Of a stretch of DNA of 64,000 nt, positions 2,014 to 17,643 are shown piece after piece. Within the stretch, counting starts at the first letter, position 1, and every line of letters begins with the position of its first letter. This DNA comes from Peptococcaceae bacterium 1109 (GTDB lineage Bacteria > Bacillota > Limnochordia > Darwinibacteriales > Darwinibacteriaceae), in assembly GCA_001028815.1 (NCBI GenBank), contig LDJB01000001.1, positions 577,634 to 641,633 on the forward strand, read 5' to 3'. A program made the translations under genes and the position numbers. The notes beneath the pieces are model-generated. The model was given only the letters and a program-made list of their open reading frames with translations. It was not told the origin of the DNA and did not search any database.

Positions 2014-2442
2014 TCACCCTAGCTGCCGCTCGGGGATGTTCTTTACCATAACCACTTTGGTGCCCACGTTCACTTCCGAATAGAGGCGCAGCTCATCCAT
2101 GCATTCTCCCATAAATGTCAAGCCCAGGCCCATGCGCTCTTCTGGAAGGGTGGTGTAGCCAGTTTCCTGCGCGGTGGCGATGTCGGGAATACCGTGGCCG
2201 AAGTCTTCTACTATGATCTCCAGCCGTGGCCCTTCATAGGATGCTTCCACTACTACATTGCCTGACTTTTCCCGGTAGCCGTGGACCACGCAGTTTGACA
2301 CCGCTTCTGATACAGCCACCTTGATGTCTTCCAGTTCATCTAGGGTAATATCTAGTTGGGCCGCGAAGTGGGCAATAGCCGCTCGGGCAAAGCCAACGTT
2401 AACGGATGTGCCGGGAAACTCTATCTTGATCCAGTTTTTCAT
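2014..2442 (-). CDS. spoIIAB: Anti-sigma F factor and serine kinase SpoIIAB
   Basis: GHKL-fold kinase that binds SigF and phosphorylates SpoIIAA. Visible ATP-site parts are the N-box (SEAVSNCVVHGY, about 45-56), the G1 box (EDFGHGI, about 79-85) and the G2 lid (RMGLGL, about 103-108). I prefer the ATG at 2442 (MKNWIKIEF), 8 bases from AGGAGG, over the ATG at 2448, which is too near the ribosome-binding site; the protein is then 142 residues, like the B. subtilis homologue. It lies between spoIIAA and sigF with very short gaps, which supports balanced expression of the partner-switching trio. Confidence 0.96.
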   Translation of the reverse strand: MKNWIKIEFPGTSVNVGFARAAIAHFAAQLDITLDELEDIKVAVSEAVSNCVVHGYREKSGNVVVEASYEGPRLEIIVEDFGHGIPDIATAQETGYTTLPEERMGLGLTFMGECMDELRLYSEVNVGTKVVMVKNIPERQLG

Positions 2443-2454
2443 AGCCATCCCCTC

Positions 2455-2796
2455 CTACACTCGCTCAAGGGCTTCCTTGGTGGAGTCCACAAATCCCGCG
2501 ATGCGGTGCATGCCGGAAAGGCGCAGAACCCTTTGAATGTGCGGGTTTGCCTTGACGAAGAACAGCTTGCCTCCCCGAGCTTGAACAGCGCGATAGCGCC
2601 CCAAGATGACTCCCAGGCCGGAACTGTCAATGAAAGTGAGGTCTTTCACGTCCAGTACGAGGTGTTTCACATGAGGGTGCCCTTCCAGTGTTCGTTCTAG
2701 GGCATCTTTCAACTGCGGGCACGTGTGCAGATCTAGATCGCCATCGAGCGCGGCGACTAGTGCTTGTCCAATCACATCGATGCTGAATCGCACCAT
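2455..2796 (-). CDS. spoIIAA: Anti-sigma F factor antagonist SpoIIAA
   Basis: STAS-domain protein of 113 residues that, when unphosphorylated, binds SpoIIAB and releases SigF. The switch segment FIDSSGLGVILGRY contains the phospho-acceptor serine: counting from the ATG at 2796 the two serines are residues 58 and 59, matching the known Ser58 site of B. subtilis. A TTG at 2808 would add four residues, but those codons overlap the purine-rich GGGGGGAGA that serves as ribosome-binding site, so 2796 is preferred. First gene of the spoIIA operon, with a candidate sigma-H promoter just upstream. Confidence 0.95.
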   Translation of the reverse strand: MVRFSIDVIGQALVAALDGDLDLHTCPQLKDALERTLEGHPHVKHLVLDVKDLTFIDSSGLGVILGRYRAVQARGGKLFFVKANPHIQRVLRLSGMHRIAGFVDSTKEALERV

Positions 2797-2827
2797 TCTC
2801 CCCCCCAATTTGCGGCAGTTTAGTGAA

Positions 2828-2857
2828 AATTTCGGGTTTCATAGCGATTTTACCTGC
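2828..2857 (-). promoter_or_regulatory. Candidate sigma-H promoter of the spoIIA operon
   Basis: On the minus strand GCAGGTAAA (2849-2857) lies 12 bases before CCCGAAA (2830-2836). This resembles the sigma-H consensus RnAGGAwWW - 11 to 12 - RnnGAAT, with a mismatch at the fifth -35 consensus position and two in the -10. In B. subtilis the spoIIA operon is transcribed by sigma-H from this position. The match is by eye and not scored. Confidence 0.45.
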
Positions 2858-2882
2858 TACCTGTGAAAAAAAGGACGACCTT

Positions 2883-4046
2883 CTAGAAGGCCGCTTCGGC
2901 TAACTCCCTAATGGTGCGGTTCGTCAGGCTCCAAAAACCCGCCCGGCCCACCGTGGACGGGGCCACAAGGGGCGCGGCTGCTAGAGTCTCATTGTCGAGG
3001 AGCGCGTAGAGGGTCCCTACTTCCGTGCCTGGTTCTAAGGGTGCCCGTAAGGTTTGGGCAAGATCAGCTTCCAGGCGGATTTCTCCCTCCCTTCCCCGCT
3101 CCACGGTGACAGTGAAATCCTCGCCCAGGGCAGCTTCAACTTGGTGGGGGCTGCCGTTCCACACATAGATGCTGCCAAAAGCTTGCCCTTTGGCTGCCGC
3201 GAGGTAGCTGTGGTAGCGCCTGAAGCCGTAATCCAAAAGGGCCCGCACATCCTCTTCCCGGGCCGCTTCGCTGGGGCTGCCTAGCACTACAGCAATCAGG
3301 CGTAGGCCATCCCGCACCGCAGTGGCGGCCATACAATAGCCAGCGGCGGTGGTAAACCCAGTCTTGATCCCATCGACTCCGCTGTAGCGGCGGAGCAGTT
3401 TGTTGCTGTTCCACAGCACCGGGATGCGGGTTGTAGATTTGCGCATGGTGTATTCGTAGGTTGAAACGTAGTCCATCATGCCCGGGACGGACAAGACGTG
3501 ACGGGCAAGGGTTGCCGCATCGCGGGCGGTCATGGTGTGTTCTGGGCCATTTTCCGGGGGCAGGCCTGTAGAATTAAGAAAGTGGCTGTTGGCGAGGCCT
3601 AGCTCCTGAGCGCGCTGGTTCATACGGGCAACGAAGTCAAGCTCGGAGCCAGCGACGTACTCAGCTACTGCCACAGCGGCATCATTAGCAGAACCTACAG
3701 CGATGGCATAGAGCAGTTCTTCGAGAGTCATCTGCTCCCCTGCCTCCAACCAGATGCGGCTGCCTCGCTTCGAAGCGGCATACTCACTCGCTGTGATAAT
3801 ATCGCTTAGAGCGAGCTCGCCTCGCTCGACTGCCTCAAGCACAAGCGTGAGGGTCATCATCTTAGTGAGGCTGGCCACTGGCAAGGGAACCTCGCTGTTT
3901 TCCTCGTAAAGGATGCTGCCGGAGCTAGCGTCCATGAGCACTGCAGCCTGAGCCTTGAGCTCCAGAGCGTGCGCTTCGGCGGCCACAATCCCCAAGATAA
4001 TCATGGCAAGGCACAGACCGAGGGCGCAAAGGCCTTTGGTGTTCAC
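2883..4046 (-). CDS. dacF: D-alanyl-D-alanine carboxypeptidase DacF (penicillin-binding protein)
   Basis: Serine-type low-molecular-weight penicillin-binding protein of 387 residues that trims the terminal D-Ala from peptidoglycan stem peptides. The three active-site motifs are present: SLTK (59-62), SAN (119-121) and KTG (228-230). A signal peptide spans about residues 1-27, and a PBP5-type C-terminal beta domain follows. The GTG start at 4046 has GGGGGAG upstream. It sits just ahead of spoIIAA, as dacF does in B. subtilis, where the enzyme acts in the forespore to shape cortex peptidoglycan. The 3' end is followed by a T-run but only a weak hairpin, so readthrough into spoIIA is possible. 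Confidence 0.93.
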   Translation of the reverse strand: MNTKGLCALGLCLAMIILGIVAAEAHALELKAQAAVLMDASSGSILYEENSEVPLPVASLTKMMTLTLVLEAVERGELALSDIITASEYAASKRGSRIWLEAGEQMTLEELLYAIAVGSANDAAVAVAEYVAGSELDFVARMNQRAQELGLANSHFLNSTGLPPENGPEHTMTARDAATLARHVLSVPGMMDYVSTYEYTMRKSTTRIPVLWNSNKLLRRYSGVDGIKTGFTTAAGYCMAATAVRDGLRLIAVVLGSPSEAAREEDVRALLDYGFRRYHSYLAAAKGQAFGSIYVWNGSPHQVEAALGEDFTVTVERGREGEIRLEADLAQTLRAPLEPGTEVGTLYALLDNETLAAAPLVAPSTVGRAGFWSLTNRTIRELAEAAF

Positions 4047-8725: not shown

Positions 8726-9790
8726 CTATGTGGCAGTGATGTGCTGCGCCCCTTCTAAGCCGCCAGCCAAGGCTGCATGGAAAAACAGGGGATCCGTTTG
8801 GGGGCCCCTGCCCATGGTCGTGACCTTCAGCCCTGCTTCAAGCATTTCACGAAAGAGGGCCTCCGTATCGTGCCAGGTGAGAGTGTGATTTAGGTCCTGC
8901 AGCGTAGATACGACGTCCTTGTGTCCTCTGCAGCATGCAGGGAGGGGCACCACACAACCTGGCAGAGCAATCTGGCCCAGTACCGTAAGAGTGTGATGGC
9001 TTACACCTCGGTGCCGAGGCCTGGGGTCAGCCTCGCTCATGCGCACCAACGCAATGGGTGTGCCTTGAAGGTGATGCACAGCATTTAGGAAAACGCCCTG
9101 CTCCAAGGCTGTGGTGCCCCACTTGGTACCTGTCCCCACTACACCAGGCCCCATCAGTACAACTACTGCATCAGCACCGCAGGCATGCCTGGCCGCTACC
9201 AGGGCACTGTAGATGTTCACAGCTTCATAATCGCCCCCGAAGGCATGGCCAAAGGTAATAACCGCATCCACCAGGCCCCGCGCCTTTAGATCTGGGACTG
9301 TCCTGCTCAAGGCTAGGGGCAGTCCTGCCCCATCACTCATAAGATAGGCCAAGCGTTTTCCCGGATGCCTTGCTTTGAAGGCGAAGGCACAGGGGGCCAG
9401 CATACTGTGGAGGCTCCCCACCATGACCGGGGCCCCCTCCAGGCTCCAGTCGCCTTGAAAGAGGTGGTGGTACTCACTTGCTTCTTCTTCTACGCTGAGA
9501 ACCCTGCCCTGCATGGGGGTGTAGCGCAGTTTCATAATATGCCCCACCCCATGCAAGCTGGCACTTCTGCCCCAGATGGCCATCACAAAGTGCCAGCCGC
9601 CCGTTCCTAGCTTGAGGTCCACAGCAGTAGTGTTAATAACTACTTGGTCGCCTACGCGGCACGGCCCCGTAAGCTCCAGGAAATTAACGGCCTGGGCCTC
9701 CTCCCCATCGCACTCCACGATAAGTTCTTGGCGCAGGCCTTGTGCGGCCGTGGCCTTCAGCACCACGGCGGTCTTATACGCGAGGTCCAT
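8726..9790 (-). CDS. DUF3866 family protein
   Basis: About 354 residues matching the DUF3866 family, which has no assigned function and is common in Bacillota and Actinobacteria. The ATG at 9790 (MDLAYKTAVVLKA) is chosen over a GTG at 9799 that abuts the purine-rich upstream bases. The protein contains an N-terminal beta-rich stretch (residues 1-100) followed by alternating helices and glycine-rich loops (SDGAGLPLALS, VVVLMGPGVVGTGT), but no catalytic motif I can name and no membrane segment. It sits 8 bases ahead of the EndoQ-like gene and 19 bases behind the oxidoreductase gamma subunit. Confidence 0.8.
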   Translation of the reverse strand: MDLAYKTAVVLKATAAQGLRQELIVECDGEEAQAVNFLELTGPCRVGDQVVINTTAVDLKLGTGGWHFVMAIWGRSASLHGVGHIMKLRYTPMQGRVLSVEEEASEYHHLFQGDWSLEGAPVMVGSLHSMLAPCAFAFKARHPGKRLAYLMSDGAGLPLALSRTVPDLKARGLVDAVITFGHAFGGDYEAVNIYSALVAARHACGADAVVVLMGPGVVGTGTKWGTTALEQGVFLNAVHHLQGTPIALVRMSEADPRPRHRGVSHHTLTVLGQIALPGCVVPLPACCRGHKDVVSTLQDLNHTLTWHDTEALFREMLEAGLKVTTMGRGPQTDPLFFHAALAGGLEGAQHITAT

Positions 9791-9818
9791 GCATACCACC
9801 GCTCCAATTGAGATGGTA

Positions 9819-10349
9819 TTATTGGTATGCCCGGCCTCGCTCTAAAGCTTGCATATTAAGGGGGATAAGGTGATGGTGCCGTTGGGACAGGACTCTCTCC
9901 AGGGAACGGCTGATGCTCTCTGGAGATACCACTGGAGAGGCCTTGAGGAATGCTCCTAAGGCAACCATGTTAGCTATACGGCTATTCCCCAGCTCATCGG
10001 CAACGGCAGTAGCGGGGATGCCAATGGCCGTTATATCTGACCGCTCTGGCGCCCGGTCCACCAACGTGGTGTTGTAGACCAAGATTCCCCCTGGCTTGAC
10101 AGCAGGCTCAAAGCGGTCAAGGGACGGCCTATTCATCACGATTACAGCATCAGGCTCACTCACGATGGGAGAACCGATTTCTCCTGCACTGATCACAACG
10201 GAACAGTTACAGGTCCCCCCGCGCTGCTCTGGCCCATAAGAGGGGTACCACGAGACTTCCTTCCCTTCCAGCATTCCCGCATTAGCTAGGAGCTGACCCA
10301 TTACGAGTACTCCTTGGCCTCCAAATCCAGCAATGATAATCTCAGTCAT
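9819..10349 (-). CDS. vorC: 2-oxoacid:ferredoxin oxidoreductase, gamma subunit (VorC-type)
   Basis: 176-residue gamma domain of pyruvate/2-oxoacid ferredoxin oxidoreductases, with the typical opening [16 protein letters not shown] and the [14 protein letters not shown] segment (about 39-52). In this family the gamma domain completes the alpha-beta-gamma-delta complex that oxidatively decarboxylates 2-oxoacids to acyl-CoA and reduces ferredoxin. Its start overlaps the beta-subunit gene by eight bases, and GGAGG stands nine bases before the ATG. Substrate choice (branched-chain versus 2-oxoglutarate) is inferred from the ptb-buk context. Confidence 0.88.
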
Positions 10350-11103
10350 GCGCGGCTTCCTCCTTGCGGGCGCTATCCTTGTACACGCCCAGGGGGTAGT
10401 AAGGCACCATGTTATCCCGCATCCAGTCCAGGGCCTCTTGGGGAGTCATCCCCCAGTTTACAGAGCAAGTTGAGAGCACTTCGACTAAAGCAAAGCCCCT
10501 GCCCTCAAGCTGTGTCTGGAAGGCCTTCTTGATGGCGCGGCCCGCTTGCCGTACGTGCTTGGGATCGTGAGTAGAAACCCGCTCGATGTAGGCAGCTCCA
10601 TCTAAAGTGGCCAAGAGTTCGCTAACCCGGATGGGGTAGCCGTTAGCTTCGATAGAGCGGCCCTGAGGAGTTGTAGTGGTTTTCTGGCCCAAGAGAGTTG
10701 TGGGCGCCATCTGCCCGCTGGTCATGCCATAGATGGCATTGTTGATGAACACCACGGTGATGTTCTCACCCCGGGCAGCAGCATGAACAATTTCCGCCAT
10801 GCCTATGGAAGCTAAGTCTCCATCACCTTGATAGGTAAACACAATGCGATCGGGGAGCACCCGCTTTATTCCCGTTGCCACTGCAGGGGCCCGGCCGTGG
10901 GCCGCTTGCTGCATATCGCAGTTGAAATAGTCGTAGGCAAACACCGAACACCCTACGCTGGCCACGCCAATGGCTGATTCGCGAACACCCAGATCATCTA
11001 TGGCTTCCGCCACCAGGCGGTGAATGATTCCATGGGTACACCCAGGGCAGTAGTGCATCTGGACATCGGTGAGGCTTTCTGGACGCTGAAAAACCTGCTT
11101 CAC
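10342..11103 (-). CDS. vorA: 2-oxoacid:ferredoxin oxidoreductase, beta subunit (TPP-binding, VorA-type)
   Basis: 253-residue thiamine-pyrophosphate subunit. It has the CPGC pair (Cys19, Cys22) found at the start of many VOR/KOR beta subunits, the TPP/Mg motif [13 protein letters not shown] (about 88-100) and the downstream [18 protein letters not shown] loop. The start is GTG at 11103, overlapping the alpha-subunit stop by four bases, with GGGGGTGA six bases before it. It acts in the cytoplasm with the alpha, gamma and ferredoxin-like subunits encoded next to it. Confidence 0.9.
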
Positions 11104-12155
11104 TGGCCTTCACCCCCTAAGAGAATATCCTTGATCTTCACCAGTACTTCCCGGGGAGTGGGAACCATCCCCCCAAGGCGGTTATGGAAATGAACTGTCC
11201 CCTGCCCGTTAACCGCGAGGCGCACATCTTCCACCAGTTGGCCCATGCTCATCTCCACCACAAGGAACTCCTTCCCGTGGTGCCTCTCAAAGGGCTCAGA
11301 GGGGAAGGGCCATAGGGAAATGGGCCTGATTAGGCCAACTTTAAGGCCTTCTGCTCGCGCCATGTCAACCGCTGAGCGGGCTACCCGGGCTGATGTGCCA
11401 TACGCGGCCAACAACAGGTCCGCATCCTCTGTTTTGTACTCCTGCCAGCGGGTTTCAGATTGGGCAATGCGGCTGTATTTATCTGCCAGGGCGTAGTTGC
11501 GCCTTTCAAGGGATTCAGGGACAATGTCCAAGGTGTTTACAGTATTGGGGCGCCTCCCCCGGGCACCTGTGGTTGCCCAAGGCTTTTCTACGGCTAGGGG
11601 TTCCTTTTGGGAAAACTTCACCGGCTCCATCATCTGACCTAGGAGGCCGTCCGCAAGAATCATGACAGGGTTGCGCCACTTGTCGGCTAGATCAAAGGCC
11701 TCAAAGGTTAAGTCAGCCATCTCCTGCACTGAAGCGGGGGCTAAGACTATCAGCCGGTAATCGCCGTGCCCTCCGCCCTTCACTGCTTGGAAGTAGTCTC
11801 CTTGGCCGGGGTGGATTCCTCCGAGACCGGGCCCGCAGCGCATCACGTTCACAATTACACAGGGGAGCTCTGCTGCCGCGATGTAGGATATCCCTTCCAT
11901 TTTAAGGCTCAGGCCCGGGCTGGATGAGGATGTCATAACCCGGACTCCGCAACCTGCAGCACCGTAGACCATGTTTATGGCAGAGACTTCGCTTTCTGCC
12001 TGGAGGTATACACCGCCCCGCTCAGGGAGGTTCTGTGCCATATAGCTGGGCACTTCGTTTTGGGGTGTGATGGGGTAACCATAAAAGGCGCGGCAGCCGG
12101 CTCTTATGGCCGCTTCTGCCAGGGCCTCATTACCTTTCATTAAAACCTTTGCCAT
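11100..12155 (-). CDS. vorB: 2-oxoacid:ferredoxin oxidoreductase, alpha subunit (VorB-type)
   Basis: 351 residues covering the pyrimidine-binding domain and domain II of the oxidoreductase. The family signature [20 protein letters not shown] (about 19-38) and the [18 protein letters not shown] segment (about 74-91) are clear. The (2-oxoacid) substrate pocket cannot be read reliably by eye; 2-oxoisovalerate is preferred because ptb and buk are in the same operon. The gene lies 24 bases after the ferredoxin subunit and is followed by beta and gamma, the usual four-subunit order. Confidence 0.9.
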
Positions 12156-12407: not shown

Positions 12408-13481
12408 TCAAACCCTTTCATAGTGGCGGGGTTTTTCCAGCCCGCGCAGCACCCGGAGGGCTCCTTGGGCTAGAGCTTCAAGCTCGTTTTCGCCGGGAAG
12501 GACAATTACGGGGCCTAGATAGCTGATGTACTCTTCGATAATCGACGTGAGGCGTTTCGAATAGGCCATGCCGCCCGTCAACACCACAGCATCTACATCC
12601 CCGTGGAGCACTGCACTCGCCCGGCCAATCTCCTTGCAGACCTGGAGGGCCATGGCGCGGAAAACCACTTCTGCCTCGTGCCCGCCCGCCTCAATCTGCC
12701 CTTCCACTTCCCTAAGGTCATTGGTGCCAAGGTGGTCTACGAGCCCTCCCCGGCCCACAAAGTGCTTCAGTAAGCTTTCTGGGGCTTCCCCGATGCTAAA
12801 GAAATAGTGGATGAGTGCTGTCGTTGGCAAGCTGCCTGTCCTTTCCGGAGAAAAGGGCCCCTCTCCATGTAAGGCGTTGTTCACATCGACCACATGCCCA
12901 TAGCGGTGTGCACCCACGGAGATGCCGCCTCCCAGATGGACCACGATGAGTTTCAAGGCGGCGTAGGGTTTGCCCAACTGGTCCGCTGCTCGCCTGGCCA
13001 TGGCTTTGTGGTTCAGGGCGTGGAAGATGCTGATCCGGTTGATCTTCGGATGGCCGCTCACCCGGGCAACAGGCTGAAGTTCATCCACCACCACCGGGTC
13101 CACGATGTAGCAGGGAATACCCAGCTGTTTCCCGAGGCTAAACCCGATTAACCCACCCAAGTTGCTCGCGTGCTTGCCGTAGCGCCCGCTCCGCAGATCC
13201 TCGGTCATGTCCTCATTCACCATGTAGACGCCCCCTGGGATGGGCCTTAGCAGCCCGCCTCGGCACACCACTGCGGTAATGCTGTGGAGGTTCACGCCGA
13301 TTTCGGCCAGCCACTCTAGGAGGGCTTCTTTGCGGAAATCCAGTTGATCAACGATGTCCCCGAACTGGGCAAGGGACTGGGCGGAATGGTTGATTGCTGT
13401 AGAACGGTACTCGTCCTCGCCGTCATAGACAGCCAGTTTGGTGCTGGTTGACCCAGGGTTAATTACCAACAGCCTTTCCAA
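12408..13481 (-). CDS. buk: Butyrate kinase
   Basis: Acetokinase-family (ASKHA fold) kinase of 357 residues that makes ATP and butyrate or a branched-chain acid from the acyl-phosphate. All expected motifs are intact: the phosphate-1 loop INPGSTSTKLAV (7-18), CRGG near 73-76, the phosphate-2 loop VVHLGGGISVGAH, GPFSPERTGSLP with the catalytic arginine, and the adenosine motif VVLTGGMAYS. The start is TTG at 13481, eight bases from GGAGG. It follows ptb directly. Context with a VOR-type oxidoreductase suggests isobutyryl- or isovaleryl-phosphate as well as butyryl-phosphate. Confidence 0.95.
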   Translation of the reverse strand: MERLLVINPGSTSTKLAVYDGEDEYRSTAINHSAQSLAQFGDIVDQLDFRKEALLEWLAEIGVNLHSITAVVCRGGLLRPIPGGVYMVNEDMTEDLRSGRYGKHASNLGGLIGFSLGKQLGIPCYIVDPVVVDELQPVARVSGHPKINRISIFHALNHKAMARRAADQLGKPYAALKLIVVHLGGGISVGAHRYGHVVDVNNALHGEGPFSPERTGSLPTTALIHYFFSIGEAPESLLKHFVGRGGLVDHLGTNDLREVEGQIEAGGHEAEVVFRAMALQVCKEIGRASAVLHGDVDAVVLTGGMAYSKRLTSIIEEYISYLGPVIVLPGENELEALAQGALRVLRGLEKPRHYERV

Positions 13482-13499: not shown

Positions 13500-14402
13500 C
13501 TACCCTTCCCGGGCCGCTAAGGCCGCGAGGGCGATCGAATTGAGCTTGCTCTCTTCCCCATCGGCCCTGGACGTGAGGACAATAGGGCATTGGGCCCCGA
13601 GGATCAGGCCCGCGGTTTTGAACCCTGCAGCATAGGTAAAGGCTTTATACAGGATGTTGCCCGCGGTGATCTCAGGAACTAGAAAGATATCCACTTCCCC
13701 TGCTACAGGGGAACTAATTCCTTTGTGGGCTGCTGCTTCCTTGGAGAACGCGTTATCAAAGGCGAGAGGGCCATCCACAACTGCTTCCCGGCTGAACTGG
13801 CCCCGGGCTCCCATCTGGGCAAGGGCAGCGGCATCCACTGTTTCTTGCATTTTTGGATTGACGGTCTCTACCGCAGCCAGGACTGCGACCTTGGGCTTGG
13901 CGAGGCCAATGGACCACGCAAACCGAATGGCGTTATCCAAGATCGCCACTTTTTGCTCCAGGTCTGGCCTGATATTCATAGCCCCGTCGGTCAAGGTGGT
14001 GAGGCGGCCATCGGCCAGCTCGATGACGGCTATGTGGCTCAGCAGAGAACTGCCCCGCAGTCCCCTTTCCTTATGGAGCACCGCCCGAAGAAGGTCTGCG
14101 GTGTTGAGCTTGCCCTTCATGAGAATGGCGCATTCCCCGCTCCTCACCAGCTCTACAGCTTGATAAGCGCTTTCCCCAGGACTGCTTGCCGCCTTAATGG
14201 TCCAGTTTGAAAGATCCAGCCCTGCCTGTTCCGCCGCTTGGGAAATGGCCCTTTCAGGCCCTGTGAGTGCGACGTGCCCGATAAGGCCCTCTACTAGTGC
14301 CTTCTGGCAGGCTTTAAGCACCGTGGGATCCGCTGCCCAGGCCACGGCTAGGCCCTGGGGGGCTGCTTTTTTGGCTTGCGCACGGAGTTCAGTAAATCCC
14401 AT
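13500..14402 (-). CDS. ptb: Phosphate butyryltransferase
   Basis: 300-residue member of the phosphate acetyl/butyryltransferase family. It converts acyl-CoA plus phosphate into acyl-phosphate, the substrate of the kinase encoded next. Family segments visible are LKGKLNTADLLRAVLHKERGLR split over about 115-134, the DGAMNIRPDL stretch near 158-167, and DIFLVPEITAGNILYK near 238-253. The ATG at 14402 lies inside the end of the upstream kinase-like gene (14-base overlap), which points to translational coupling with it. Confidence 0.95.
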   Translation of the reverse strand: MGFTELRAQAKKAAPQGLAVAWAADPTVLKACQKALVEGLIGHVALTGPERAISQAAEQAGLDLSNWTIKAASSPGESAYQAVELVRSGECAILMKGKLNTADLLRAVLHKERGLRGSSLLSHIAVIELADGRLTTLTDGAMNIRPDLEQKVAILDNAIRFAWSIGLAKPKVAVLAAVETVNPKMQETVDAAALAQMGARGQFSREAVVDGPLAFDNAFSKEAAAHKGISSPVAGEVDIFLVPEITAGNILYKAFTYAAGFKTAGLILGAQCPIVLTSRADGEESKLNSIALAALAAREG

Positions 14403-15336
14403 TTACCTCAAGCTCCTTTCCAGATTCCATCAGTCTCTGCCCTAGACGAAGAACAGCGTGGACGCTGTGATCACCAGGATAATTCAGGATGGCTGCCCCC
14501 CCGAGGTAAGCACTGAGGCCCCGGAGCCCATTGGGAGTAAGGTAAGGCCCAGTAAGCACCACAGCATCATGCTTGCCTCTTAGTACCGCGGCGTAGGCGC
14601 AGATTTCTTTCGCCAGCTGATAGACGAACGCGGTATAGATCCAGTCCGCCTCGTGCTTGGTCCAGGCTAAGGCATCGGCCTCCGCCAGGCTCCCTACGCC
14701 CAAGTAACCTCTAAAGCCGCTCCGTTCAGTCACTTCCCGGATTGCTTCCTCCCTGCTCCCCACATCCTGGCAAAAGGCAAGGAGCTGTGCAAAGGGAAGG
14801 CTGCCGCTGGTGGTTACGGAGAATGGCCCTTCATCGTAAGGGGTGCTCAGATCGATAATCTTCCCGCCTTGGACGGCCCCCGTAACCACTGCATCGCCGA
14901 TGTACGCCACCACGAACCGGCCTTCGCCTACAGGAAATGCCAGTTCTTCCCGGGCACGCTCTGCAGCATGCCACACAGCAAGGGCTGGGCCTTGCTGGGC
15001 GCGCTGAAAGGCTGAAAAGCCCGTGAGCCGGGATTCAGCCAGGAATTCCGTGTAGTGTTCTTTTGAGATGACCACTGCAGGTAGGCCCAGCCCCACGCGG
15101 AATAGCTGGGCCAGTTCTTGGAGGAACCCACGGCAAGCGGGAAGATCGCTGCCTAAAGCGACAGCTTGAAGGAGCGGTTTTGGGAAGGATAGGGCGTCGA
15201 GTGCTGCGGTGGTGAGTTGGAATACGTGCTGCGGAGTGAGATCGGACAGAGGCAGCTCACTTAAGCGAGCGTCGTGTTCGGAGCCGACAGCAAGCTTGAG
15301 TGAGGCGGCCTGGGGCACAACAGCCAGAATGCTCAT
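14389..15336 (-). CDS. Degenerate butyrate kinase-like protein (ASKHA paralogue lacking catalytic motifs)
   Basis: 315 residues that align along their length with the butyrate kinase two genes downstream, but with the active site changed. The phosphate-1 loop NPGSTSTK becomes VPQAASLK, HLGGG becomes YIGDA, the arginine of PERTGSLP becomes VTTSGSLP, and LTGGMAYS becomes LTGPYLTP; the CRGG region is missing. DEGPFS and the C-terminal helices are kept. The start is ATG at 15336 with AGGTGG eight bases upstream. The frame is intact and overlaps ptb by 14 bases, so it is probably made and not a pseudogene. Loss of kinase activity is inferred; a regulatory or scaffolding role with Ptb/Buk is one option. 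Confidence 0.8.
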   Translation of the reverse strand: MSILAVVPQAASLKLAVGSEHDARLSELPLSDLTPQHVFQLTTAALDALSFPKPLLQAVALGSDLPACRGFLQELAQLFRVGLGLPAVVISKEHYTEFLAESRLTGFSAFQRAQQGPALAVWHAAERAREELAFPVGEGRFVVAYIGDAVVTGAVQGGKIIDLSTPYDEGPFSVTTSGSLPFAQLLAFCQDVGSREEAIREVTERSGFRGYLGVGSLAEADALAWTKHEADWIYTAFVYQLAKEICAYAAVLRGKHDAVVLTGPYLTPNGLRGLSAYLGGAAILNYPGDHSVHAVLRLGQRLMESGKELEVNGIY

Positions 15337-15360
15337 GAACGCAACCACCTCTTGCTCTCT

Positions 15361-15398
15361 AAAAAGCACAAAAAGCAGGTATCGTTAGTACCTGCTTC
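15361..15398 (-). terminator. Rho-independent terminator downstream of pnp
   Basis: AAGCAGGTA (read on the minus strand from 15397 to 15389) pairs perfectly with TACCTGCTT (15381-15373) across a 7-base loop and is followed by TTTTTGTGCTTTTT. It closes the rpsO/pnp region and lies just ahead of the kinase-like gene. Confidence 0.88.
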
Positions 15399-15421
15399 CT
15401 TTTCAAGCATCGTTCATCAAA

Positions 15422-17542
15422 TTATTTCGACGCCTCAGGGGTGTGATCCTCTTTTGGAAGGAGCTCTTTCCGGGAAAGATTGATCCGGCCTTGGCGGTCG
15501 ATTTCGATCACTTTCACCATGATCTCATCACCGATGTTGACCACATCTTCCACCCGCTTGACTCTGTGGTGTGCCAGCTGGGAAATGTGGACAAGGCCTT
15601 CTTTTCCAGGAAGAATCTCCACGAAAGCGCCGAAGTTCATGATGCGCTTGACGGTCCCGAGATAAGAGGCTCCCACTTCCACGTCTTTCACATATCTCTC
15701 GATCATCAGCTTGGCCTGTTCCCCACCTGTGCCATCGGTGGAAGCAATGTATACCCGCCCGTCGTCTTCGATGTCAATGGCCACGCCTGTCTGCTCGATG
15801 ATCTTCCGGATGGTCTTCCCGCCTGGGCCGATCACATCTCTGATCTTGTCCACAGGGATCTCCATGGTGATGATTCGGGGGGCGAACGGTGACAGCTCTG
15901 CCCGAGGTTCTTGAATCGCTTCAGCCATCTTACCCAGGATGAACAGCCGTCCAAGACGGGCTTGCTCTAGGGCCTGCTGAAGGATGTCTCGGCTCACGCC
16001 ACTGATCTTAATGTCCATCTGCAGTGCGGTGATGCCGTCCCGGGTCCCTGCAACTTTGAAGTCCATATCTCCCAGGGCATCCTCGATTCCTTGGATGTCG
16101 GAGAGGATCGCAAAGTCATCGCCGTACTTAACCAAACCCATGGCAATACCTGCTACAGGCTTGCGAATGGGGACACCTGCATCCATCAGGGCAAGGGTGC
16201 TGCCGCACACACTGGCTTGGGAAGTGGAGCCATTTGACTCTAGGACTTCGGATACCAAGCGAATCGTGTATGGGAACTCCTCTTCTTTCGGTACCATGGG
16301 CAGCAATGCCCGCTCTGCCAGAGCACCGTGGCCGATCTCCCGCCGTCCCGGGCCTCGGATAGGCCGCACTTCACCAACGCTGTAGGCTGGGAAGTTGTAG
16401 TGGTGAATGTAGCGCTTCCGATCTTCATCGCTCAGGTTATCCAAGAGCTGTTCATCAGATTTCAGGCCTAGGGTACATACGGTTAGGACTTGGGTCTGCC
16501 CCCGGGTAAACAAGCCTGAGCCGTGGGTCCTGGGGAGGATCCCAGCCTTGCAGGTGATGGGGCGAATCTCGTCCAGTCTCCGCCCATCAGGCCTAATGCC
16601 GTCTTGGATAATCGAGCGCCGGACTTCGTCCTTCATGAGGGAGTCAAATACTACTCCAACATCCTTGGCTTTCTCTTCGAAAATTTGCTCGCCGAAGGCC
16701 TCGATGTACGCTTCGTTCAGCTGTTCCCGAACGGTGTCAATGGCTTGCTCCCGCTCTTGCTTGTCCGCAGCCCTGAGGGCAAGTTTCAGCCGCTCAGTGG
16801 CGAACTCCCGCACCCACTGCTCCATTTCCGGCTCAGGCTCAAAGAGAGGTACTTCGACCTTAGCTTTGCCAATCTCAGCTCTGATTTCCTCTTGCAGCAG
16901 GCACAGTTCCTTTATGTAATCATGGGCAAACATAATGGCACCCAATGCCTGCTCTTCCGTGACCTCTTCCGCACCTGCTTCCACCATCATAATGGCGTCT
17001 TTGGTACCTGCCACGGTGAGGTCCAAAACAGACTGTTCGCACTGCTCTAGGGTGGGGTTCACCACGTATTCCCCATTTACAAGTCCCATCTTAATGCCGG
17101 CAACTGGGCCTGCAAAGGGGATATCAGAGATGGTTAAGGCAGCGCTGGCCCCAATCAGTCCCGCAATGGTGGGTGAGTTGTTGTTGTCAACGGACATGAC
17201 CGTGACCACAACTTGCACATCATTGCGAAACCCATCAGGAAACAGAGGCCTCAAAGGACGGTCAATCATGCGAGCGGACAAAATCGCTTCTTCGCTGGGC
17301 CGTCCTTCCCGCCTGCCCCATCCGCCGGGGATTTTCCCCACGGCGTACATGCGCTCTTCGTAGTCTACCAGCAGGGGAAAGAAATCAATCCCTTGGCGGG
17401 GCTCTTTGCTCATGGTGGCGGTGACCAAGACTACTGTATCACCGTACCGCACCAGGACGGAGCCGTTGGCCTGCTTTGCTACTTCGCCAAATTCCAGGAC
17501 CAGGGGCCGCCCCCCCAGCTCTCGACGATACTCCAATGCCAT
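15422..17542 (-). CDS. pnp: Polyribonucleotide nucleotidyltransferase (PNPase)
   Basis: 706-residue 3'-to-5' phosphorolytic exoribonuclease. It has two RNase PH domains (about 1-220 and 310-545), an alpha-helical linker, a KH domain ([19 protein letters not shown], from about 556) and a C-terminal S1 domain ([20 protein letters not shown], from about 624). The start MALEYRREL at 17542 has GGAGG eight bases upstream; the longer frame to 17623 has no homology. It follows rpsO after a terminator, as in most bacteria, and ends at its own terminator. Confidence 0.97.
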
Positions 17543-17643
17543 ACTATAACCTCCAGTTATGCAATTCTTCTGGGCCGTATTAGTGTCCCAAGTCGAGGCC
17601 GCTAATAGTCCGGTCCAGTTCATGTTCCATCAATAGGATATTC

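Follow-up and report, generated by a model that had tools for sequence, protein, structure and literature searches.

A butyrate kinase paralogue encoded directly 5' of the phosphate butyryltransferase gene ptb has lost the catalytic residues of its family and is maintained by purifying selection across a family of anaerobic bacteria. We propose, at a probability of about one half, that this pseudoenzyme is kept for a non-catalytic role, most likely that of binding the intact butyrate kinase (Buk) through the ancestral dimer surface and so setting its function.

The paralogue and its operon

In the window, the whole stretch of 64,000 nucleotides analysed, the paralogue is the first gene after the hairpin that follows pnp (Table 1). 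Its frame comprises 315 codons and a stop, with the TGA lying inside the start of ptb in a 14-base overlap, and this frame, the overlap and a good ribosome-binding site, all reported in the original prediction, were confirmed in the sequence. The protein belongs to the acetokinase family, scoring 37.2 bits against Pfam Acetate_kinase PF00871 (cut-off 22), but lies below the butyrate kinase cut-offs of TIGR02707 (91.9 bits versus 289.1) and NF002834 (117.3 versus 222). The end-to-end alignment with Buk that had been claimed holds for the family profile, of which positions 4-319 align to residues 3-350 of 1x9j (E = 1.4e-54), but not for pairwise BLASTP against the neighbouring Buk, in which only residues 83-303 aligned (E = 8e-24, 29% identity). 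An AlphaFold monomer model (mean pLDDT 83) matched the ASKHA fold of Thermotoga maritima Buk2 (1x9j) in Foldseek (E = 5.9e-17, TM 0.73). Loss of part of domain I accounts for the approximately 42 residues by which the paralogue is shorter than Buk. A domain search found no DNA-binding or other extra domain in it, a single-sequence scan and viral contigs yielded no close relatives, and no RNA families were detected across the window. Besides the Buk and an acetate kinase, the source genome encodes a single copy of the paralogue.

Table 1. Features of the operon and its upstream flank (positions are those of the window)
Feature	Position	Strand	Remarks
DUF3866 gene	8726..9799	-	last conserved gene of block
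vorG, gamma subunit	9819..10349	-	
vorA, TPP-binding beta-type subunit	10342..11103	-	
vorB, 2-oxoacid (ketoisovalerate-type):ferredoxin oxidoreductase alpha-type subunit	11100..12155	-	
buk, intact butyrate kinase	12408..13481	-	TTG start; NF002834 503 bits, cut-off 222
ptb, phosphate butyryltransferase	13500..14402	-	overlaps paralogue by 14 bases; own ribosome-binding site inside paralogue
Putative pseudo-butyrate kinase (upstream buk paralogue)	14389..15336	-	315 aa, catalytic residues lost
Paralogue ribosome-binding site	15345..15353	-	AAGAGGTGG; AGAGGTGG 5' of ATG; from the sequence
Terminator-like hairpin between pnp and paralogue	15370..15400	-	AAGCAGGT..ACCTGCTTTTT; belongs to pnp in wider class
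pnp, polynucleotide phosphorylase	15422..17623	-	conserved upstream neighbour of paralogue

The pnp hairpin (AGCAGGT..ACCTGCTTTT) has a near-invariant stem and a variable loop across several families of the class, usually occurs once per genome and is present also where DUF3866 directly follows pnp. Such constancy of the stem sequence is unusual for a plain terminator. A role as an operon-specific attenuator was rejected, since genomes that lack the buk cassette have the hairpin 3' of pnp as well.

Loss of the active site

In the alignment with Buk, NPGSTSTK is replaced by VPQAASLK, HLGGG by YIGDA and PERTGS by VTTSGS, whilst CRGG and the GKHASN region that follows it are deleted; the three motif replacements and the missing CRGG region had been described correctly beforehand. 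Among the 20 eroded copies, the Buk residues N8, G10, K15, R74, H154, G185, G186, R214 and E331 are each kept in none or one, and of these nine motif positions the window copy retains only the lysine of the phosphate-1 loop. With residue roles taken from the structure paper on Salmonella AckA (PMC3475010), the equivalents of AckA R91, H182, N213, G214, R243 and E387 are kept in none of the 20. Positions invariant in Buk are kept in the paralogue at a frequency of 0.12 in the active site versus 0.38 elsewhere (p = 0.006). The paralogue therefore does not qualify as a butyrate kinase by its loops, its catalytic His and Arg or its metal-binding Asp/Glu; catalytic motifs are absent while an active paralogue exists, as expected of a pseudoenzyme, and we infer that it has no kinase activity. 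Homology-based annotation would label it a butyrate kinase, though ATP making is not to be expected.

It is very improbable that the paralogue still catalyses a reaction, whether by changed chemistry or from an active site that has moved. Relocated catalytic residues have been described in other pseudoenzymes (PMC10211241), and some cleft residues are strongly conserved in one subclade of 17 genomes, but hardly any eroded copy retains the two phosphate loops, the metal ligands or either catalytic arginine; most such positions are kept in at most one of the 20, and the replacements differ between subclades.

Conserved linkage to ptb and buk

A homologue search covering 61 related genomes returned matches in the same family (f1), which consists of uncultured anaerobic bacteria, and in a sister family (f5); within 73 genomes of the class, the paralogue lineage is confined to these two. 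Where f1 contigs are long enough, the gene order is rpsO-pnp-[paralogue]-ptb-buk-vorB-vorA-vorG-DUF3866. The ptb gene was found in 21 of 23 f1 genomes, and the paralogue in all 21; of the two exceptions, one is cut by a contig end (G008) and the other is without paralogue, ptb, buk or a close vorB (G017). Paralogue and ptb are neighbours in every case where both lie on one contig (the G020 contig ends inside the paralogue), and their spacing ranges from an overlap of 47 bases to a gap of 15. The paralogue also stands between pnp and ptb in f5. Thus the three-gene order, which the original prediction had named as a check, is kept in the f1 genomes with ptb, a conserved coupling to ptb and buk.

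This arrangement also bears on the suggestion that the partner is Ptb, for which the paralogue would act as scaffold or chaperone, or from which it would channel acyl phosphate to Buk. The position directly 5' of ptb in all genomes favours it, as does the spacing, which suggests translational coupling. We regard it as improbable, given that the rate covariation between paralogue and Ptb described below is not significant and that the retained residues match a Buk-type dimer surface.

In relatives without the buk cassette (L182, L183, L187-L189), DUF3866 stands directly after pnp, and because of this direct adjacency the paralogue-ptb-buk-vor block looks inserted. Loss in the cassette-free relatives is an alternative, because ptb-buk-vor occupies the same slot in other Bacillota (L126, L091, L101).

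Graded erosion and phylogeny

Copies of the paralogue form a graded series from enzyme to pseudoenzyme. The upstream copy in f5 is intact, retaining NPGSTSTK, RGG, H(L/M)GxG and ERxG, which are all of the kinase motifs. The copy of one f1 genome (G007) is half eroded, with both phosphate loops lost (YPEAACTK, YLSTE) and the Arg of RGG, the His of GxH, His-154 and the Arg of ER still present. Catalytic residues are gone in 20 f1 genomes, which comprise the window subclade (G000, G001, G005) and the 17-genome subclade. The replacements are YIGDA and VTTSG in the former versus HLDEE and ALRQSG in the latter; on this point the original prediction, which had proposed looking for the same substitutions in relatives, did not hold.

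In a tree of all copies, the paralogue lineage forms a single clade apart from the downstream Buks (support 100/99). A recent duplication of the neighbouring buk is rejected by this separation, and also by the position of upstream Buks elsewhere, which lie outside the downstream group. Clusters of the form buk-ptb-buk, with both copies intact, occur in other Bacillota (Caloramator, ADurb.Bin153 and Yes71-24); this and the placement of their upstream copies point to an ancestor with two working-looking kinases flanking ptb.

In a tree of the operon genes (pnp, ptb, vor and buk proteins), G007 joins the 17-genome subclade (support 100/99), and its alternative placement is rejected (AU p = 0.0001). 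Because G007 thereby falls inside the eroded group, the catalytic residues that it retains were probably lost in parallel, at least twice. A single loss of activity is disfavoured by this tree, whereas the tree built from the paralogue itself favours a position of G007 outside (96/90), with the operon topology not rejected at 5% (AU p = 0.07). Parallel losses would indicate that a non-catalytic role predates the loss of the active site.

Altered butyrate kinases in other lineages

Buk homologues with altered motifs were also observed elsewhere. Brochothrix campestris (L083:9080-10201) carries an independent degenerate Buk with an intact frame (NTGIQSLK, SNTG and catalytic His replaced by Asn), which occupies the place of ptb-buk in a recN-[buk]-lpd-bkd operon; its 15-kb contig contains no ptb and no second buk. 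In a Coriobacteriales contig (L097), ptb is followed by two adjacent Buk homologues (843-2219 and 2254-3360), the catalytic His being replaced in both (TQTLN, WQPLS), and judging by these motifs the two could possibly form a complementary pair. Buks of WOR-3/Stahlbacteria (L071, L075, L090, L092, L104) have the phosphate-1 loop NPGGGSTK or NPGAGSTK and the second loop HLGTG; those of L071, L075, L090 and L092 lie beside or near vor genes.

Selection on the paralogue

No copy of the paralogue contains a frameshift or internal stop. Maximum-likelihood estimates of omega were 0.16-0.19 for the paralogue, 0.04-0.09 for buk and 0.06-0.08 for ptb. Most genome pairs are near synonymous saturation; in the least saturated pair (G012/G016, dS 0.6-0.8), omega was 0.21-0.28 for the paralogue versus 0.06-0.07 for buk, amino acid identity of the paralogue was 74% versus 24-33% in neutral simulation, and no stops were observed versus approximately 10 simulated. 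More than 20 residues are invariant among the 20 eroded sequences. The paralogue is the fastest-evolving gene among its neighbours (tree length 11.6 versus 6.1 for buk). It is thus under real constraint, although buk is constrained some two to four times more strongly. The dN/dS test named in the original prediction bears out its claim that selection keeps the gene, and the neutral decay in relatives that would have spoken against it was looked for and is absent.

A decaying pseudogene, or a translated leader whose frame is kept only for translational coupling to ptb, is scarcely credible. The faster evolution than any neighbour, the loss of the active site and the deletions in domain I are what such decay could produce, but because dN/dS is approximately 0.16-0.19 the paralogue is neither pseudogene nor merely translated leader; the invariant columns, the simulation and the lack of stops, where about 10 or more would accumulate under neutral drift, likewise reject both.

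Retained residues and a proposed role

Residues kept in the eroded copies are R112, D162, E169-G-P-F172, G178-x-L-P-F182, Q240, K243, E244 and I245. The dimer-pocket residues D227, R309, K312 and Y313 of Salmonella AckA (roles from PMC3475010) correspond to D162, Q240, K243 and E244 of the paralogue, where the Buk residue is kept in 19 of 20 copies at D162 and in all 20 at each of the other three. R112, likewise invariant, corresponds to the leading Arg of RRYGxH in AckA, next to R178 of the pocket. The EGPF and SGxLPF segments, neighbours of the pocket residues, are invariant too. The EGPF-SG segment (residues 161-180) is the weakest internal part of the monomer model (pLDDT ~49-71), as expected if a partner orders it. 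In AckA the equivalent stretch, residues 230-300, contacts the other subunit and adopts a different conformation when citrate is bound (PMC3475010). The strongest covariation of branch rates was that between paralogue and Buk (residual rho 0.40, p = 0.018, without correction for six tests); VorG gave 0.33 (p = 0.05) and Ptb 0.18 (p = 0.29).

These observations suggest the following model. The paralogue would descend from the upstream kinase gene of an ancient buk-ptb-buk arrangement, would have lost phosphotransfer between ATP and carboxylate in f1 and would have been kept by selection for a non-catalytic role. Its proposed partner is the intact Buk encoded two genes downstream, which it would contact via the dimer surface inherited from the acetokinases; as a subunit without catalysis of its own, it would determine how active or stable Buk is or how Buk responds to ligands. 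The step affected would be the last, ATP-forming one of branched-chain 2-oxoacid fermentation, in which 2-oxoacid is converted to acyl-CoA (Vor), then to acyl phosphate (Ptb) and finally to acid and ATP (Buk). We favour Buk as the partner on four grounds: the interface to which the retained residues belong is of Buk type, the paralogue is never separated from the ptb-buk operon, its branch rates follow those of Buk most closely, and TsaB offers a precedent in the same superfamily (PMC4330362). For the partnership with Buk or Ptb that the original prediction proposed, the support is indirect and consists of the conserved dimer-pocket residues, the constant linkage and a weak rate correlation with Buk.

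The main rival, which we consider unlikely, is a stand-alone ligand-binding protein, a sensor or carrier that forms homodimers without Buk and whose ATP/acyl cleft has been rebuilt for another metabolite. Conservation of the old cleft in the 17-genome subclade is on a par with that of the remaining protein (0.65 versus 0.62), and the cleft has new residues (Y7 88%, L13 94%, D117 94%, D147 88%, N289 88% and Q290 100%), a pattern that would fit a new ligand role equally well, and the AckA dimer pocket can itself bind a ligand (PMC3475010). The window subclade differs at these positions (V7, P117, G147, D289, H290), however, so that no single new site is common to both, the linkage to ptb-buk is never broken and the paralogue has no DNA-binding or other extra domain. 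Two further points speak against binding to Buk: the pocket residues may serve the fold or a pseudoenzyme homodimer, because Buk conserves them too, and the degenerate Buk of Brochothrix campestris, with no other buk on its 15-kb contig, raises the possibility of a pseudo-Buk that has no Buk to pair with.

More tentatively, the working butyrate kinase of f1 may be a heteromer of catalytic Buk and dead paralogue, in which the dimer pocket would provide allosteric control of the ATP-forming step. If so, the ASKHA superfamily would hold a second and independent example, after TsaB, of a dead paralogue turned subunit, and here living species would still carry intermediate stages of the dismantling. 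The finding is relevant to the control of substrate-level phosphorylation in anaerobes.

Comparison with known systems

The paralogue resembles Buk (EC 2.7.2.7; T. maritima Buk2, PDB 1SAZ/1X9J) in fold, descent, dimer-pocket residues and an operon setting with ptb and 2-oxoacid:ferredoxin oxidoreductase genes, but has lost both phosphate loops, the catalytic His and Arg, the metal ligands and part of domain I. It shares the upstream Buk position, outside the downstream Buk group, with the buk-ptb-buk clusters of Caloramator (L115/L125), ADurb.Bin153 (L126) and f5, which differ in keeping all kinase motifs in both copies. No published pseudo-butyrate kinase was found in the open literature, with subscription journals largely outside this scope.

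Among dead paralogues with a partner, the prozyme of trypanosome AdoMet decarboxylase activates its enzyme by heterodimerisation (PMC5201418) and likewise stands beside an active relative; it differs in being eukaryotic and of unrelated fold. In the ASKHA superfamily itself, YeaZ/TsaB, a truncated paralogue of YgjD/TsaD, heterodimerises via the region of its homodimer (PMC4330362). Like the Buk paralogue, TsaB is a shortened copy of an active ASKHA protein that bacteria have retained; unlike it, TsaB belongs to the TsaD family rather than the acetokinases, and the dead Buk paralogue, whose heterodimer is only proposed, is confined to one bacterial family. Dead paralogues turned partners are therefore already known, TsaB within ASKHA included, and the butyrate kinase case appears, from the open literature, to be new.
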